In this document: piece after piece, positions 28,989 through 36,471 of the stretch | How positions within the stretch are numbered: position 1 is the stretch's first letter | How the letters are laid out: each line of letters begins with the position of its first letter | NCBI GenBank assembly: GCA_003211275.1 | Contig: QCTE01000013.1 | Coordinates: 1-38,144 of the forward strand | From: Synechococcus sp. AG-673-A03 | Lineage (GTDB): Bacteria > Cyanobacteriota > Cyanobacteriia > PCC-6307 > Cyanobiaceae | Direction of reading: 5' to 3' | Length of the DNA: 38,144 nucleotides | Notes under the pieces: model-generated | Seen by the model: the letters and a program-made list of their open reading frames with translations, nothing else | What the model was told of the DNA's origin: nothing | Database searches by the model: none | Translations under genes and position numbers: made by a program

Positions 28989-29115
28989 GACCCAATTGAT
29001 CTGAGCACTGCTCCGTCAACGCCATTCTTTGTTCGGTTTTTTTAGTTCCGCTGATTCAGGTGAGGTATCGAATTCCACATGCTGGAATAAAGGTCAGCTG
29101 ATCAGATTCAGATCG

Positions 29116-30033
29116 ATGGCGCGAAAAGGGATCATCCTGGCCGGCGGCAGCGGCACTCGGCTTGCACCCTTAACTTCGGCGGTCAGCAAGCAGCTGATGC
29201 CTGTTTATGACAAGCCGATGATTCATTACCCTCTCAGCACGCTGATGTTGGCTGGGATTCGTGATGTTTTGATCATCACCACGCCGCATGATCAGCCTGC
29301 TTTCCAGAGGCTTCTGGGAGATGGCAGCGCCTGGGGCATGTCAATTGCTTATGCCATTCAACCAAGCCCTGATGGCCTTGCCCAAGCGTTTTTGATCGGG
29401 GCTGAATTTCTGGATGGTGCACCAGCTGCTCTCATCCTGGGAGACAATCTTTTTCACGGTCATGAACTGATTCCCCAACTGCAGGATGCGGCACATCAAC
29501 AACAGGGTGGAACAGTCTTTGCCTACCCAGTTCGTGATCCTGAGCGTTATGGAGTGGTTGAGTTTGATTCGGAAGGGAAGGTGCTGAGTATTGAGGAGAA
29601 ACCAGAGCAGCCCCGCAGTCGTTATGCAGTGACAGGTCTCTATTTCTATGACTCCTCAGTGGTTGAACGTGCTCAACTGGTGCAGCCCTCAGCTCGGGGA
29701 GAGCTTGAGATCACCACTTTGAATCAGATGTATCTCGAGGATGGCTGTCTTGAGGTCGAATTAATGGGTCGTGGAATGGCCTGGCTGGACACTGGTACGT
29801 TCGATTCCTTGCATCAGGCGGGTTCTTACATACGTACGTTGGAACAACGTCAAGGACTCAAAGTGGGTTGTCCGGAGGAAGTGGCCTGGCGACAAGGTTG
29901 GATTGAAGATCGGCAACTTGAGGTTTTGGCGCAGCCCTTGCTCAAAAGCGGCTATGGCACATATCTACTGCAGATGCTCAATGAGGGGAATGGTGATCAT
30001 GCTCTATTGCAGCGCAATATTAATCCCAGGTGA
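29116..30033 (+). CDS. rfbA: Glucose-1-phosphate thymidylyltransferase
   Basis: RfbA (RmlA) joins dTTP and glucose 1-phosphate to dTDP-glucose, the first step to dTDP-L-rhamnose. The start at 29116 gives 305 residues beginning [20 protein letters not shown], with the nucleotide-binding GGSGTR loop. An upstream frame to 29029 is not plausible. [29 protein letters not shown] and YFYD are further family hallmarks. Its end overlaps the end of the convergent wzt gene by 30 bases. The other rhamnose genes, rfbC and rfbD, lie about 5 kb to the right, beyond the exporter and TPR genes. rfbB is not in the window. Confidence 0.97.
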
Positions 30034-31377
30034 TGATTGGTTTGAGTTAATTGGTTGGTGCTGAATTAATTCAGCAGGTCGGCTGGTTAGATCGCAGATG
30101 CCGGATGGAGTGCTGTCGGGATTTATAAGAATACGAAAGGCACAGAAATCCACAACGCGATGCAGGAATGCACCGGGCTGGTCAGCTGGCCAGACTCCTC
30201 CCCCAATGAAATAGACCCCGGGGAGAAGACCTGCTCCGAAGCTGAAAATGACCTCCCACTGGTCTCCGGCTTTGGGGGTGAATAGTTCTCCTGACATTGG
30301 GAAGGCCTGTCCAGTGATTCTCAACCCCTGGTTATTGGCGATATGGCATCCGCATCGCAATAATTGCGGATTGTGATCAGGCTCTGTGCTGTAACTGAAA
30401 CGCAACTGAAATGCAGCTCCAAAAGTGATCTGATTGCATTCGCGGCCATCCGGGTACTCCACTGTCACTGATTCGATTGTGATTCCTTCACTGGGATAGA
30501 TCTCGCGGCTTTGTGGGATCAGGTTGGGATCATGTTCTTCATCGGTTTCAGCGGAACTGAATTCGCTGTTAGTTGGATCGCTGTCTTGTGAATTGATTAA
30601 TGCTTGCCTGCGATTGATGACTGCTTCCCATTGTTCATCGGGGGCATTGGCCAGTTGTTGATAAGTGGTCGTGATGACTGATGGCTGTCCAAGCAATTGT
30701 GGCTGTCCTTTATGCAGCAGCAGGGATACATCGCAATGCTGAATGATCTGTGCACAACTATGGGTGACGAGCAGGATTGATGTGCCTTGTTGTTTGAGTT
30801 GGCTCAGGCGTGCAAAACATTTTTTCTGGAACAGCTCATCACCGACTGCCAGAGCTTCATCCACGATCAAGATGTCGGGATCAATGCTCGCTTGAACAGC
30901 GAATGCCAGCCTTAAAGCCATGCCGCTGGAATAGGTCTTGACCGGTTGTTGAATGTGATCGCCGATATCAGCAAAGGCAAGAATCGAATCGAGGCGCATC
31001 TCGATTTCTTTTTGCTTGAGTCCAAGCAGAGAGGCATTGAGAAAAACATTTTCCATGCCTGTGAATTCAGGGTTAAATCCACTGCCGAGTTCCAGCAATC
31101 CGGCAACGCGGCCGCGGCAGCTCAGTTCTCCTTCCGTTGGAGTCAAGGTTCCGCACAGCATCTGCAGCAGGGTGCTTTTGCCGGAGCCATTGCGGCCGAC
31201 AACTCCAAGGGTTTGTCCTCGGAGGAGTTCGAAATTCACGCTACGGAGAGCCCAGAATTCTTGATAGAACTGCCTTCGCTCACCGATGAGCCCCTGCAGC
31301 AGTCTTGCTTTGGGTGATGGAAAAACGCGGTAGCACTTTCCCAGGTTGTTCACGCTGATTGCGATGGAATCCGACAT
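30004..31377 (-). CDS. wzt: Polysaccharide ABC exporter ATPase (Wzt-type) with C-terminal glycan-binding-like domain
   Basis: This is the nucleotide-binding subunit of an exporter for lipid-linked polysaccharide. The ABC domain fills about residues 1-245: Walker [10 protein letters not shown] at 61-69, signature [12 protein letters not shown] at 149-160, Walker B ILIVDEAL at 169-176 and the switch histidine in LVTHS. After an acidic Ser/Glu linker (about 250-300) comes a beta-rich domain (about 300-430) like the Wzt C-terminal domain. In E. coli O8/O9a that domain recognises the finished chain end. The ATG is 10 bases after the wzm stop, so the pair is an operon. It overlaps rfbA tail-to-tail by 30 bases. 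Its C-terminal part looks more AT-rich than the housekeeping genes and may be the exchangeable specificity module. Confidence 0.93.
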
Positions 31378-31387
31378 GGCAAGCGGG

Positions 31388-32191
31388 TTAAATCACGTCG
31401 GCAAAGCCCTTGCGCGCTTTTTGAAAAAGCCGGCAACTGAGCTCGCAGAATCCCAGGCTCAATGGAATGCCCAGTAGGAGGTACAACATCGATGGAGGTG
31501 TTCCCCGTACGAGCACGGCGCGTGTCGCTTCGATGACATGGACGAGGGGATTGAGTAGCAGCACAGGCTGCCATCGTTCGGGAAGGGCGCTGATTGGGTA
31601 AAACACAGCGCTGAGAAACATCAACACGCTCAGCAGAACGTTCACCAATTGCGGCAGATCCCTGAGGTAGACCCCTGCTGCTGACAGCAGCCAGGCCAAG
31701 CCCAGACAGCCGGCCAGAAATGGCATCCACACCACTGGCAACAGAAACGCAGTTGCTGGGATTCTGCCCGTGGCGAGAAGTTCAAAAACGGCCAGAACCA
31801 CCAAGCTGGTGATGGCATGGAAGCATGCTGCACCAACGGCAGTGGCACTGAGGAGCTCCAGGGGAAACACCACTTTTTTCACATAGCTGGGCTGGCTCAG
31901 GATCAGCGTTGGAGCCTTGCCGATGCATTCCGAGGCCAGGTTGAAGACAATGAGTCCTGCAAACAGGTTGATCGCAAATCCCAGCGGCCCAGCTTGTTGC
32001 AGGTCAGGCCAGCGCGCTTTGAAGACTGTCGAAAACACAAAGGTGTAGACGGCCAGCATCAACATTGGTTGAAGAAGGGTCCAACCCCAGCCGAGCAGTG
32101 AGCCGCGGTACCGGCTCACAACTTCACGCTCGCACAGGCGCCAAAGAAGTTCCCTGTTTAGGTTCAAGGCTCGCCAGCTGCGCATTTTCAT
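31388..32191 (-). CDS. wzm: Polysaccharide ABC exporter permease (Wzm-type)
   Basis: Membrane subunit of the Wzm/Wzt exporter, of the ABC-2 type. The 267-residue protein from the ATG at 32191 begins MKMRSWRALNLNRELLWRLC. It has the conserved amphipathic CEREVVSRYRGSLLGWGWTLLQP entry segment, then about six membrane helices. The family's YLRDLPQLVNVLLSVLMFLSAVFYP and NPLVHVIEATRAVL blocks are present. The same frame stays open to 32638, which would add about 149 residues of atypical sequence. I reject that extension because the 267-residue length is normal and another ORF with better codon use occupies 32188-32517. The ATG overlaps that ORF's stop as ATGA, the usual sign of translational coupling. 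wzt follows after 10 bases. Confidence 0.93.
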   Translation of the reverse strand: MKMRSWRALNLNRELLWRLCEREVVSRYRGSLLGWGWTLLQPMLMLAVYTFVFSTVFKARWPDLQQAGPLGFAINLFAGLIVFNLASECIGKAPTLILSQPSYVKKVVFPLELLSATAVGAACFHAITSLVVLAVFELLATGRIPATAFLLPVVWMPFLAGCLGLAWLLSAAGVYLRDLPQLVNVLLSVLMFLSAVFYPISALPERWQPVLLLNPLVHVIEATRAVLVRGTPPSMLYLLLGIPLSLGFCELSCRLFQKARKGFADVI

Positions 32192-32517
32192 GACGGCAAA
32201 GCGCTCATCGAATTGAGCGGAAGCTTGTTGAGGTAATGCAGAAATGAGGGATGCCCGTGTTCGATGAGTAAAAACGTCCAGTTCTTGAGGTTGGGTTTCA
32301 TCACAGGAAAGTTCTGTAGCACCATCAATTTTGCGGCTGTTTCTAGTGGGCTCACGAATCCCAACTGCGGCAGATTCAGGAAGACGTTGATGCAGTGTCC
32401 CATTGCCAGACTGCGCTTCAGCATTGCTTTCTTGCGCAGCGACCCATAGCCATTGGGATTGGCAGCTGGATCCACCTGTTCTTGGATGTAATGCGGTAGG
32501 CAGACGTTGACCCGCAT
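32188..32517 (-). CDS. Small unknown protein translationally coupled to wzm
   Basis: A 109-residue ORF in a frame different from wzm. Its TGA overlaps the wzm ATG as ATGA. The N terminus (MRVNVCLPHYIQEQ) resembles a beta strand opening a sugar-nucleotide enzyme. NGYGSLRKKAMLKRSLAMG follows, then a leucine-rich middle and a His-rich part (LIEHGHPSFLHYL). Third codon positions are mostly G or C, as in the neighbours. In the competing frame (the would-be wzm extension) they are mostly A or T over the same bases. No strong ribosome site precedes the ATG at 32517. I do not recognise the family. It could be a complete small protein of the export operon, or the start of a longer gene cut short by a frameshift. 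Confidence 0.5.
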   Translation of the reverse strand: MRVNVCLPHYIQEQVDPAANPNGYGSLRKKAMLKRSLAMGHCINVFLNLPQLGFVSPLETAAKLMVLQNFPVMKPNLKNWTFLLIEHGHPSFLHYLNKLPLNSMSALPS

Positions 32518-32587
32518 TCCAGGAGTTCGACTGGGGAGGGCACTCTCTCATTCCCTTCTCTTCAGCGCCAGGTTTTGATTCAGCGTC

Positions 32588-32593
32588 GATAAT
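32588..32593 (+). promoter_or_regulatory. Possible -10 element for the TPR-glycosyltransferase gene
   Basis: GATAAT matches five of six bases of TATAAT, about 100 bases before the chosen start at 32695, in the divergent gap 32518-32694. No convincing -35 box is at the right distance. Confidence 0.25.
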
Positions 32594-32694
32594 TGTTGCG
32601 CTGTTGCGAGCACCCGTTGGCGGACGGTTTTCGATCATCCAAGTCCACGAACCGCAGGCCCTCCCCGCGCAGCGATAAGGGTCAGGGCGTTTCG

Positions 32695-34590
32695 ATGTCG
32701 GAGATCCAACAGATTCTTCAGGTGCATGCCAAGGGTGATCTTGATGACCCTCTTTCCACCTATCGCGATCTTTATGTCCGTGGGTCTCGTGATCTTGGAG
32801 TCCTAATCAACCTGGCTCAGCTTGAGCTAGCTGCGGATCATCCCGATCAGGCTGTCCGTTATGGCCAGGCCTTCGTGGCCAAGAACGCTGACTTTGCTCC
32901 TGCCTGGTTGATGCTCGGTGTGGCCCAGCGGAGGCTGGGTCGACGCCGGGCAGCTATTCAGTCGCTTCGACAGGCGGTGACGCTTGATCCGCATCAACAC
33001 GGGGCCTGGGTCAGTCTTTCGGTGGCTCTGCATGATTCAGGTGAGCTTGATGCCGCTTTGGAGGCATGTCACACGGCGCTAGGGCTTGATCCGGCATCGG
33101 CAGCGGCCTGGACCAATCTGTCGATGGTGCATCTGTCGCTCGCTCAGGTTGACGAAGCTCGCTCCGCAGCCGAGGAAGCAATCCGACTGGATTCGCAATT
33201 GCCTGAGGGGCATCTCAATCTGGGCAATGCCCTTCATGCCCAGGAGTCCTGGGTTGAGGCCATTAATGCCTTCCGCCAGGCCTTGGCCCTGAAGCCTGAT
33301 CTGGTGGCGGCTCTTTCAAGTCTGGGCAATGCCCTTCGGGCTAATGATCAGCTGGACGAAGCCTTGACTGCGTTTGATCAGGCGATTGCCTTGAACCCAA
33401 ACTATTTTCAGGCCCATTCCAATCGGGCGATCACCCTCAGGGCTCTGGGGCGCTCGCAGGAAGGCTTGACCAGTTGCCAGGTGGCCCTGAAGCTCTCGCC
33501 TGATTCGGCCGACGTGCACAGCAATCACGGTGTGCTCCTGCATGAGCTCGGCCTGCTGAAGCAATCCGAGCATGCCTACCGCCGAGCCATTGCCTTCGAC
33601 CCCGAGCATTGCGAAGCCCAGTTTTCGCTCTCGATGCTCTTGTTGCAGCAGGGGATCTACAAGGAAGGTTGGCAGCGCTATGAGTGGCGCTTTGCCCATA
33701 ACGCTCGCCACCCGATTGTTCAGGTGATTCCCGATGTATCGCATTGGCCCGGGCCTGAAGATGATCCGGTGGAGGAGTTGGTGCTGCTGCATGAGCAGGG
33801 ATTGGGCGACAGTTTTCAGTTCCTCAGGTTTGCTCCGCTGTTGCGCCCCTTTGCACATCGATTGTTGTTCTGTGCACCCAAGCCCCTGGAGTCGCTCGTT
33901 GCGTCCTCTGAGCTGGTGGATGCTGTCCTTCCTTTGAAGGTCAGTGCCGATCAATTGCAGGTTGGTGCCAGAACGTTGCCCTTGATGAGTGTGCCGGGGA
34001 TTCTGGGTTTGGAGGCTGAGGAGTTCGCAGCTGCGGTGCCTTATTTTCCCGTCGAGCAGCAGCGCTGTCATCTCTGGCAACAGCGCTTGCAGATCGAAGC
34101 CTCTTCCAGTGAGCGGTTCCTGATTGCGCTCAATTGGCAAGGCAATCCGGACCATGAGAAAACAACCTCCAGAGGACGTTCGATTCCTCTGGAGGCACTG
34201 GCCCCCCTGGCATCGCTTCCTGAAGTGCGCTTTGTCTCACTGCAGAAGGGTTTTGGTTCTGAACAGCTGGAGTCGTGCAGTTTCCGGGATCGTTTTGTGG
34301 CGTGTCAGCCGCAGGTCGATGAGGCCTGGGATTTTGAAGACGCCGCTGCTCTGATGCACTGCGCAGATCTGACCATCAGTTCAGATACGTCCGCTGCCCA
34401 TCTGGCTGGTGCGATTGGTGCCACGCTCTGGATCCTGTTAAAGCATGTTCCCGAGTGGCGTTGGGGACTGTCTGGATCCACGACGCCCTGGTACCCAACG
34501 GCGCGGTTGTTCCGGCAGACGCAGGCCGATGACTGGTCAGCTCCAGTGGAGGAAATCCGTGCTGCTCTGATTGCAGGGATACTGAGCTGA
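32695..34590 (+). CDS. TPR-repeat protein fused to a GT9-like glycosyltransferase domain
   Basis: The start at 32695 gives 631 residues beginning MSEIQQILQVHAKGDL. The in-frame extension to 32593 adds 34 low-quality residues. Residues 20-330 are about eight to nine TPR units, clear in the repeats ending ALGLDP, AIRLDS, ALALKPD, AIALNP, ALKLSPD and AIAFDP. From about 340 the sequence becomes a GT-B-like domain related to heptosyltransferases (GT9): HEQGLGDSFQFLRFAPLL near 365, NWQGNPDHEKTTSRGRSIPL, and the donor-site stretch MHCADLTISSDTSAAHLAGAIG before the C terminus. This layout is common in cyanobacterial and proteobacterial proteins and may glycosylate protein or lipid-linked glycan. The DUF6165 gene begins 17 bases after its stop, suggesting one message. 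The substrate is unknown. Confidence 0.88.
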   Translation: MSEIQQILQVHAKGDLDDPLSTYRDLYVRGSRDLGVLINLAQLELAADHPDQAVRYGQAFVAKNADFAPAWLMLGVAQRRLGRRRAAIQSLRQAVTLDPHQHGAWVSLSVALHDSGELDAALEACHTALGLDPASAAAWTNLSMVHLSLAQVDEARSAAEEAIRLDSQLPEGHLNLGNALHAQESWVEAINAFRQALALKPDLVAALSSLGNALRANDQLDEALTAFDQAIALNPNYFQAHSNRAITLRALGRSQEGLTSCQVALKLSPDSADVHSNHGVLLHELGLLKQSEHAYRRAIAFDPEHCEAQFSLSMLLLQQGIYKEGWQRYEWRFAHNARHPIVQVIPDVSHWPGPEDDPVEELVLLHEQGLGDSFQFLRFAPLLRPFAHRLLFCAPKPLESLVASSELVDAVLPLKVSADQLQVGARTLPLMSVPGILGLEAEEFAAAVPYFPVEQQRCHLWQQRLQIEASSSERFLIALNWQGNPDHEKTTSRGRSIPLEALAPLASLPEVRFVSLQKGFGSEQLESCSFRDRFVACQPQVDEAWDFEDAAALMHCADLTISSDTSAAHLAGAIGATLWILLKHVPEWRWGLSGSTTPWYPTARLFRQTQADDWSAPVEEIRAALIAGILS

Positions 34591-34607
34591 TCCAGAGTTT
34601 TGCTTGT

Positions 34608-35000
34608 ATGAACCTGCTGATTCCCGCTTCAGTTGGTGAGCTGATCGACAAGATCACGATCCTGGAGATCAAGGCGAAACGCATCGATGACTCAGCCAAA
34701 TTGGCCAATGTCAATAAAGAGCTGCATGCTCTGATGGCGGTGGTTACTCAACAAGGCCTTGGTTATCCCACTGGAGCTCTCGCAGAGCTGGGCCGTCAGC
34801 TGGCCTCGGTGAATCTCCAGCTCTGGGAGATCGAAGACGAGATTCGAGACTGTGAGCGTCAAGCCTGTTTTGATGATCGTTTTGTTGACTTGGCACGCTC
34901 GGTGTATCAACGCAATGACGAACGTGCGCGGATCAAGCAAGTGATCAATGCAGAGTGTGGATCCGCTTTGGTGGAAGAGAAAAGCTATGCGGCGTATTAA
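34608..35000 (+). CDS. DUF6165 family protein
   Basis: A 130-residue soluble protein beginning MNLLIPASVGELIDKITILEIK, the hallmark of the DUF6165 family. The function of this family is not established. It is almost all alpha-helical: residues 10-45 and 60-115 are charged helices likely to form a coiled coil or helical bundle (LWEIEDEIRDCERQACFDDRF). The C terminus ends EEKSYAAY. It begins 17 bases after the TPR-glycosyltransferase gene and ends 29 bases before rfbC, so it sits inside an operon for surface glycan synthesis. It could be a partner of the adjacent TPR protein, which is inference from position only. Confidence 0.85.
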   Translation: MNLLIPASVGELIDKITILEIKAKRIDDSAKLANVNKELHALMAVVTQQGLGYPTGALAELGRQLASVNLQLWEIEDEIRDCERQACFDDRFVDLARSVYQRNDERARIKQVINAECGSALVEEKSYAAY

Positions 35001-35029
35001 GCGATGATCGGTCGTGGTTTGAGGGATCT

Positions 35030-35614
35030 ATGCGAGCCGAACGCTTATCAACAACTGCGGGAGTTGAGATCAAGGGTCCTCTGCTGATTAAGCCGCGTGT
35101 GTTCGGTGATGCACGTGGCTTTTTTATGGAGAGCTGGAATCAGCAGGTGTTCGCATCGGCCTTGGAAGCGGACGGTCAGGCTGCGGCTGTCTTTGTTCAG
35201 GACAATCACTCACGCTCAGCGAAAGGTGTGCTGAGGGGTTTGCACTATCAGGTTCCTCCCCATCCTCAGGGAAAACTCGTGCGCTGCGTGCTGGGAGAGA
35301 TCTTTGATGTGGCTGTGGATCTGCGCCGAGATTCCTCCAGCTTTCGTCACTGGGTTGCTGCACGTTTAAGTGGTGAGAATCACCAGCAACTCTGGGTTCC
35401 TCCAGGTTTTGGCCATGGTTTTCTCACCCTTAGTGAGCACGCGGAAGTGTTGTACAAAACCACAGACTTCTGGAATCGCGAGTGTGAGCAGGCTGTCCGC
35501 TGGAATGATCCAGAGATTGCCATTGCATGGCCTTCTGATGACGGGCTTCAACCCCAGCTCTCAGAGAAAGATGCGGCGGCACCATTACTTGTGGACCAGA
35601 CATGCGTGTTCTGA
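35030..35614 (+). CDS. rfbC: dTDP-4-dehydrorhamnose 3,5-epimerase
   Basis: RfbC (RmlC) inverts C3 and C5 of dTDP-4-keto-6-deoxyglucose, the third step to dTDP-rhamnose. The ATG at 35030 is chosen because GAGGGA lies about five bases upstream and the protein then starts MRAERLSTTAGVEIKGP at 194 residues. The longer frame to 34955 would overlap the DUF6165 gene. H72 in VLRGLHYQ and Y142 in VLYKTTDFW are the catalytic pair, 70 residues apart as usual. The cupin core is intact. It overlaps rfbD by 13 bases, so the two are translated together. Confidence 0.96.
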   Translation: MRAERLSTTAGVEIKGPLLIKPRVFGDARGFFMESWNQQVFASALEADGQAAAVFVQDNHSRSAKGVLRGLHYQVPPHPQGKLVRCVLGEIFDVAVDLRRDSSSFRHWVAARLSGENHQQLWVPPGFGHGFLTLSEHAEVLYKTTDFWNRECEQAVRWNDPEIAIAWPSDDGLQPQLSEKDAAAPLLVDQTCVF

Positions 35615-36471
35615 TCACAGGGGCCCGCGGGCAGCTCGGTCAGCAATTGGCCCAGTGTGTTCCGCAATCGGTCGATGCCAGATTTGTTGGCCGAGCTGAG
35701 CTTGATCTTTCCGATTCACAAGCTTGTGCTGAAGCAGTAGAGAACTGGAAACCCGATTGGCTGATCAATGCCGGTGCATACACAGCGGTGGATCAGGCTG
35801 AGTCCGATCAGGATGTGGCTTCTGCCGTCAATGCCGGCGCTCCGCAATCATTTGCTCAGGCCTTGCATCGCTGCGGTGGTCATTTGCTTCAGGTGAGCAC
35901 GGATTTTGTCTTTGATGGTGCGCAGGGGTTTCCCTATCAAGTGGATCAGCCTGTGTCTCCGCTGGGGATTTATGGATCCACCAAAGCTGATGGTGAAGCG
36001 CGGGTTGCTGCTGCGCTTCCAGTTGATCGTTTCTGCATCCTGCGCACGAGCTGGGTCTATGGCCCGGTGGGCCGAAATTTCATGCGCACCATGCTGAACT
36101 TGCATGCTGAGCGGGATCAGCTGCGGGTTGTTGACGATCAGGTGGGATGTCCAACGGCAACAGTGGGGCTTGCCTTGGCCTGTTGGCGCACTTTGGAGCG
36201 ACAACAGTCTGGAGTGCGCCATTGGAGTGATGCTGGAGCCGCAAGTTGGTACGACTTTGCAGTGGCCATCGGTGAGCTGGCGCAGATGAGAGGTTTGATT
36301 ACTTCGGCCGCTGCAGTGGAACCCATTCCTGCATCGGCCTATCCAACGCCGGCGCGCAGACCTTCCTATTCCTTACTGGAGTGCAAGGGCACACGAGCAG
36401 CTCTGGACTTACCGGCAGTTCACTGGCGCGAACGTCTCGATCAGGTGATTCGTTCGATGGTTCAGCTTTAA
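35602..36471 (+). CDS. rfbD: dTDP-4-dehydrorhamnose reductase
   Basis: RfbD (RmlD) reduces dTDP-4-keto-L-rhamnose to dTDP-L-rhamnose with NAD(P)H. The 289-residue short-chain dehydrogenase-like protein starts MRVLITGARGQLGQQL (GxxGQLG cofactor loop). It has NAGAYTAVDQAESD, STDFVFDG and the catalytic YGSTKADGE with Y124 and K128. The later block RTSWVYG and the Pro-rich ending (YPTPARRPSYSLLECKG) are also typical. It overlaps rfbC by 13 bases and is followed after 23 bases by the sugar transferase gene. Confidence 0.97.
   Translation: MRVLITGARGQLGQQLAQCVPQSVDARFVGRAELDLSDSQACAEAVENWKPDWLINAGAYTAVDQAESDQDVASAVNAGAPQSFAQALHRCGGHLLQVSTDFVFDGAQGFPYQVDQPVSPLGIYGSTKADGEARVAAALPVDRFCILRTSWVYGPVGRNFMRTMLNLHAERDQLRVVDDQVGCPTATVGLALACWRTLERQQSGVRHWSDAGAASWYDFAVAIGELAQMRGLITSAAAVEPIPASAYPTPARRPSYSLLECKGTRAALDLPAVHWRERLDQVIRSMVQL

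Follow-up and report, generated by a model that had tools for sequence, protein, structure and literature searches.

Wzm/Wzt systems have been described that export O-antigen and further polysaccharides (PMC4594306), and for gene pairs whose stop and start codons overlap as ATGA PMC6728339 reports that coupling was strict in 13 of the 14 pairs tested. Both arrangements meet in the window, that is, the whole 38,144-nucleotide stretch of Synechococcus sp. AG-673-A03 (contig QCTE01000013.1) analysed here, in which the permease gene wzm is preceded by a short ORF (Table 1) and the surrounding cluster also holds dTDP-rhamnose genes and a sugar transferase. We consider it very probable that this short ORF is the internally deleted remnant of a gene for a glycosyltransferase (GT)-like protein of about 300 residues, the middle of which has been lost. 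Read directly from the DNA are the two halves, the order in which they stand and the fact that they are joined in frame, together with the arrangement of the genes and the ATGA overlap.

Table 1. Features of the exporter locus and of the short ORF in the window (G numbers denote reference genomes)
Feature	Position	Strand	Basis
Short ORF, ATG start, 109 codons, TGA stop	32188..32517	(-)	
N-terminal remainder of the putative parent gene, codons 1-49 (MRVNVCLPHY...FLNL)	32371..32517	(-)	55% to G015 residues 1-49
C-terminal remainder of the putative parent gene, codons 50-109 (PQLGFVSPLETAAKL...)	32191..32370	(-)	61% to G015 residues 238-293
Putative deletion junction, Leu49 codon (CTG) and the next C	32370..32373	(-)	overlap of the two match ranges
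ATGA, TGA of the putative remnant overlapping the wzm ATG	32188..32191	(-)	sequence; same overlap type in G021, G010, G015, G082
wzm, ABC-2 type polysaccharide exporter permease, 267 aa	31388..32191	(-)	PF01061, E 9.6e-27
wzt, exporter ATPase with Wzt_C domain	30004..31377	(-)	PF00005 and PF14524
Open stretch of the wzm frame upstream of wzm, judged non-coding	32192..32638	(-)	low third-position G+C, not conserved

Two-part homology and the junction

In four reference genomes, G021, G010 and G015 of the same genus and G082 of the same family, wzm and wzt are immediately preceded, on their own strand, by an intact gene for a protein of 293-308 residues. When 60 genomes (the window's own genome and relatives) were searched with the short ORF, two separate matches to this one gene were obtained in several same-genus genomes: the first 49-83 ORF residues matched the gene start and the residues from about 48 on matched the gene end, with E = 1.5e-14 for the N-terminal half against G010 and E = 1.2e-19 for the C-terminal half against G021. 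With the intact G015 protein as query (Synechococcus sp. AG-679-A04, contig QCUI01000007.1, 4881-5789 plus stop), residues 1-49 matched window 32371-32517 (55% identity) and residues 238-293 matched window 32206-32373 (61% identity). These two ranges overlap by a single codon, a leucine that corresponds in the G015 protein to Leu49 for the N side and to Leu238 for the C side, and the C-terminal remainder is 66% identical to its counterpart in G171 over residues 48-105. Compared with each of the four intact homologues (G021, G010, G015 and G082), 189 whole codons are missing, and therefore the deletion is in frame.

A scan of genome contigs with the 109 residues yielded no relative, and the same scan with the intact protein yielded one genome (AG-679-A04). 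Within the order, the short ORF was matched by 50 of the 399 genomes, the window's included, and apart from the window's own every match with E < 1e-4 lay in an open frame of at least 212 codons. The original prediction had offered a distinct small protein or the truncated head of a longer one. The former had to be given up, the matching gene having 285-360 codons, counted from chosen starts, in 39 aligned homologues (alignment A2, which consists of these 39 and the window row). The latter came closer, since the head is indeed present (residues 1-49), but the tail is present too and it is the middle that is gone.

We propose that the parent, coding for a glycosyltransferase-like protein of about 300 residues, would have stood first in a GT-wzm-wzt operon. 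An in-frame deletion of 189 codons (about 567 bp) would have joined its first 49 codons to the last 60 or so, possibly between short matches around CTGC, and the operon's first gene, having lost its catalytic core, would now be at most a translated lead-in to wzm. CTGC lies on both sides of the would-be junction in G021 and G082 and not in G010 or G015; a deletion between such matches is plausible, with CTGC shared in two of four relatives as weak evidence for it. No direct repeats explaining the deletion were found within 31300-32750. An imperfect 18-nt direct repeat (83%) is present at the start and end of wzm (32188-32205 and 31393-31410), and may be due to chance. No full-length copy of the gene was found elsewhere in the 93 contigs of the window's genome, the assembly of which is 70% complete.

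Constraint, decay and the integrity of the assembly

The evidence on whether the remnant decays is mixed. Of the 30 columns with a conservation of 90% or more, it departs from the family at 6, and each of the seven closest intact rows at 0; as many departures are reached by only two of the 31 intact rows, both divergent (6/31 and 7/31). The reference for this comparison was the 31 homologues of the order's close group, without the 8 remoter rows of A2. In a quick tree of the same 31 homologues and the window (97 of 100 columns), in which the remnant was flagged for unusual letter make-up, it was placed inside a supported clade of eight rows (SH-aLRT 97) on an end branch of 0.52, the longest in the clade (0.014-0.18 for the other seven). 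The tree-based distance ratio does show that the remnant is accelerated at matched wzm distance, being 1.3-2.3 for six window pairs against 0.9-1.7 for six intact pairs, a comparison that omits, from 14 pairs in total, G171-G095 (0.70) and G021-G015 (3.05), which have shorter wzm distances; the wzm tree comprised 20 chosen loci and the window, of 39 genomes matched. Pairwise dN relative to wzm, about 1.5-1.7 for the remnant (4 pairs) and about 2.1-3.2 for intact copies (6 pairs), argues against fast decay. The remnant probably evolves under relaxed constraint.

When neutral substitution was simulated, 38% of such frames were still open after 0.1 changes per site, and 6% after 0.4. A fairly young deletion would therefore account for the open frame even without selection, and because the frame is still open the deletion appears not to be ancient. 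That start, frame and overlap have all been kept is equally compatible with a young deletion and with a function that has been retained.

The same deletion could also have given rise to a short form that is now a functional derived small protein, be it a decoy, a regulator or an exporter partner. The open frame with its ATG and ATGA kept is in favor of this, as are the few frames that neutral substitution alone leaves open at the rates above, and third codon positions are the most divergent from relatives in 7 of 8 half-by-genome comparisons (4/4 for the C half and 3/4 for the N half; in the eighth, the N half against G010, first and third positions tie). However, this third-position bias may wholly predate the deletion, highly conserved positions have changed (6/30), and no other genome was found to carry the short form (31 of the genus, 399 of the order), so that we regard a derived small protein as quite improbable. 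With respect to the internally deleted remnant itself, ribosomes may translate it and re-initiate on wzm, which we put forward tentatively, and it is unlikely that selection keeps it, either as a translated leader that mainly supplies wzm with ribosomes or as a small decoy protein acting at the exporter. Its product, without the acidic core, would probably be catalytically inactive.

It is very improbable that the deletion is an artefact of assembly, the real genome having the gene intact and a 567-bp stretch having been dropped. The assembly is fragmented, as its contig number and completeness indicate, and the species is represented by one strain, which would allow for an assembly error or a rare allele, but the two halves meet in frame and in register, at a single homologous residue, a search of 31300-32750 showed no long repeat at this join, and there are changes at conserved columns, which would be unusual for a working gene.

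Reading frames, wzm start and gene order

A stand-alone small-protein gene, in favor of which the ORF and its coding statistics could be cited, is ruled out by the clear two-part homology to one long gene and is next to impossible. Codon-position G+C (positions 1/2/3) is 0.54/0.34/0.65 in the short ORF, 0.66/0.55/0.34 for the same bases in the wzm frame, and 0.61/0.43/0.66 in wzm itself. Among order-1 Markov sequences of the region, the frame is open for at least 119 codons at a fixed place in about 2%, and the openness of the short-ORF frame alone is only moderate evidence for coding. The decisive support for the short ORF being real is homology, as judged from the sequence comparisons, and the short-ORF frame is 51-67% identical to the four homologues, compared with 22-36% for the other two frames. 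These values bear out the original prediction of a real ORF with G/C-rich third positions (0.65 against 0.34 in the wzm frame), read in the minus-strand frame as the coding one and coupled in position to wzm, the stop of the intact gene overlapping the wzm start as ATGA in 4/4 relatives with that gene order. The warning that a gene caller could extend wzm over the ORF was also justified, because the longest wzm-frame ORF (31388-32638, 416 codons) runs on over it.

Equally close to impossible is that the short-ORF bases form an N-terminal extension of wzm (the 416-aa form): the wzm frame is open to 32638, but its third positions over the short ORF are A/T-rich, the extension is 23-36% identical to the relatives, and stops interrupt it inside the compared stretches of G015 and G082 and, in G010, 7 codons before wzm begins. 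The extension is therefore ruled out by its codon positions, its low identity in that frame and its lack of conservation. Conservation of the extension in relatives, which the original prediction had named as the finding that would speak against the short ORF, was not observed.

A wzm of this kind is present in 39 of the 399 genomes of the order, and the window wzm is 74-77% identical to wzm of the four relatives. Among 32 wzm loci including the window's, each with about 1.5 kb on either side, the gene is located within about 1.5 kb of wzm only in the window and in those four, so that the gene and the exporter do not always stand side by side; gene order was compared in 20 chosen neighbourhoods. 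The four reference genomes resemble one another closely and therefore do not count as four independent witnesses. The window ATGA is situated about 17-18 nt (about six codons) further into wzm than the ATGA of the relatives, and in a comparison with G021 there seem to be net changes of -2 and -1 bases near the overlap, as though two small indels had been followed by its re-formation. Since the relatives start wzm some six codons before the aligned place, the most likely start of wzm in the window is 32191. A promoter scan upstream found no sigma-70-like site.

Within 29029-36471 of the window, rfbA stands apart from rfbC and rfbD, and between them lie the wzt-wzm-remnant block, which runs on the opposite strand, and two additional genes. 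Because rfbA-rfbC-rfbD are contiguous in G021, G010 and G015, where they are divergent from the exporter genes, and split in the window, a local rearrangement of the rfb genes in the window is suggested. Beside the rhamnose genes we also observed a 130-codon ORF of the DUF6165 family (PF19662) at 34608-35000, and a DUF6165 homologue is also found near the GT-like gene in G172 (L076).

Parent family and comparison with known systems

In A2, the near-invariant residues E135 D136 D137, D181 G182, and N217 P218 H219 are all inside the missing block. The central motifs EDD, DG and NPH are accordingly absent from the remnant, deleted with residues 50-238 or thereabouts. The family residues P8 H9, G25 S26, R35, and A38 of the N-terminal part and F243, P246 L247 E248, A251, K263 P264, and H276 of the C-terminal part are kept, with L39 changed to M and T252 changed to K (T63K). 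Because the list of invariant columns counts the window row, it hides any column in which the window alone differs; such columns are visible in the comparison of the 30 conserved columns above. The acidic motif and the rhamnose/ABC-exporter surroundings suggest that the parent was a metal-dependent glycosyltransferase. Sequence searches of Pfam, NCBIfam and PDB found no convincing match to the parent family; the few hits among the 40 rows scanned were isolated, weak and to unrelated families (best E 0.021 in Pfam and 0.03 in NCBIfam), and the single-sequence AlphaFold2 model of an intact homologue had a mean pLDDT of 34, too low for the model to be of use.

A relationship of the parent to GT25 (PF01755) was considered and rejected, one GT25 protein having an hhalign probability of 0.3% against the family profile; GT25 matches over the cut-off were present in only 3 of 145 genomes of the class. 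A viral origin was rejected as well, no relative being found in viral contigs by pattern search combined with tblastn, and PHROGs gave isolated weak matches only (best E 0.0095). No literature on the parent gene was found, which has little weight for a family that lacks a name under which it could be sought.

The cyanobacterial family of about 300 aa includes L002, L003 and others of A2 and has a near-invariant EDD, again without a convincing match in Pfam or NCBIfam. A second broken copy of the family was observed in L118 (G177:C1:353500-357000), where the N-terminal part is in another frame with an in-frame stop and about 205 C-terminal residues are open. Loss of this GT-like family gene may be recurrent.

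The analysis settles the likely nature of the ORF and removes a candidate new small protein, and it supports 32191 as the wzm start. Further, it points to a cyanobacterial family with a near-invariant EDD that is sometimes linked to an ABC polysaccharide exporter, and it indicates that surveys of small ORFs can be misled by in-frame deletions after which a coupled remnant persists. The remnant itself is largely ordinary gene decay, still abutting the exporter gene.

Among known genes, the remnant resembles the family gene of about 300 aa of the AG-679-A04 type in its N-terminal 49 and C-terminal 52 or so residues and in its position before wzm-wzt with the ATGA overlap; that gene is intact, whereas the window copy is without the 189 central codons that hold EDD, DG and NPH. 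The ATGA termination-reinitiation pairs of PMC6728339 have the same-strand overlap of stop and start seen between the remnant and wzm, but coupling was tested experimentally in those pairs, whereas the window pair is known from its sequence arrangement and its upstream gene is broken. Finally, the Wzm/Wzt exporters (PMC4594306) combine a permease with a Wzt_C ATPase and a dTDP-rhamnose cluster as in the window, and no such exporter is known to have the remnant as a component.
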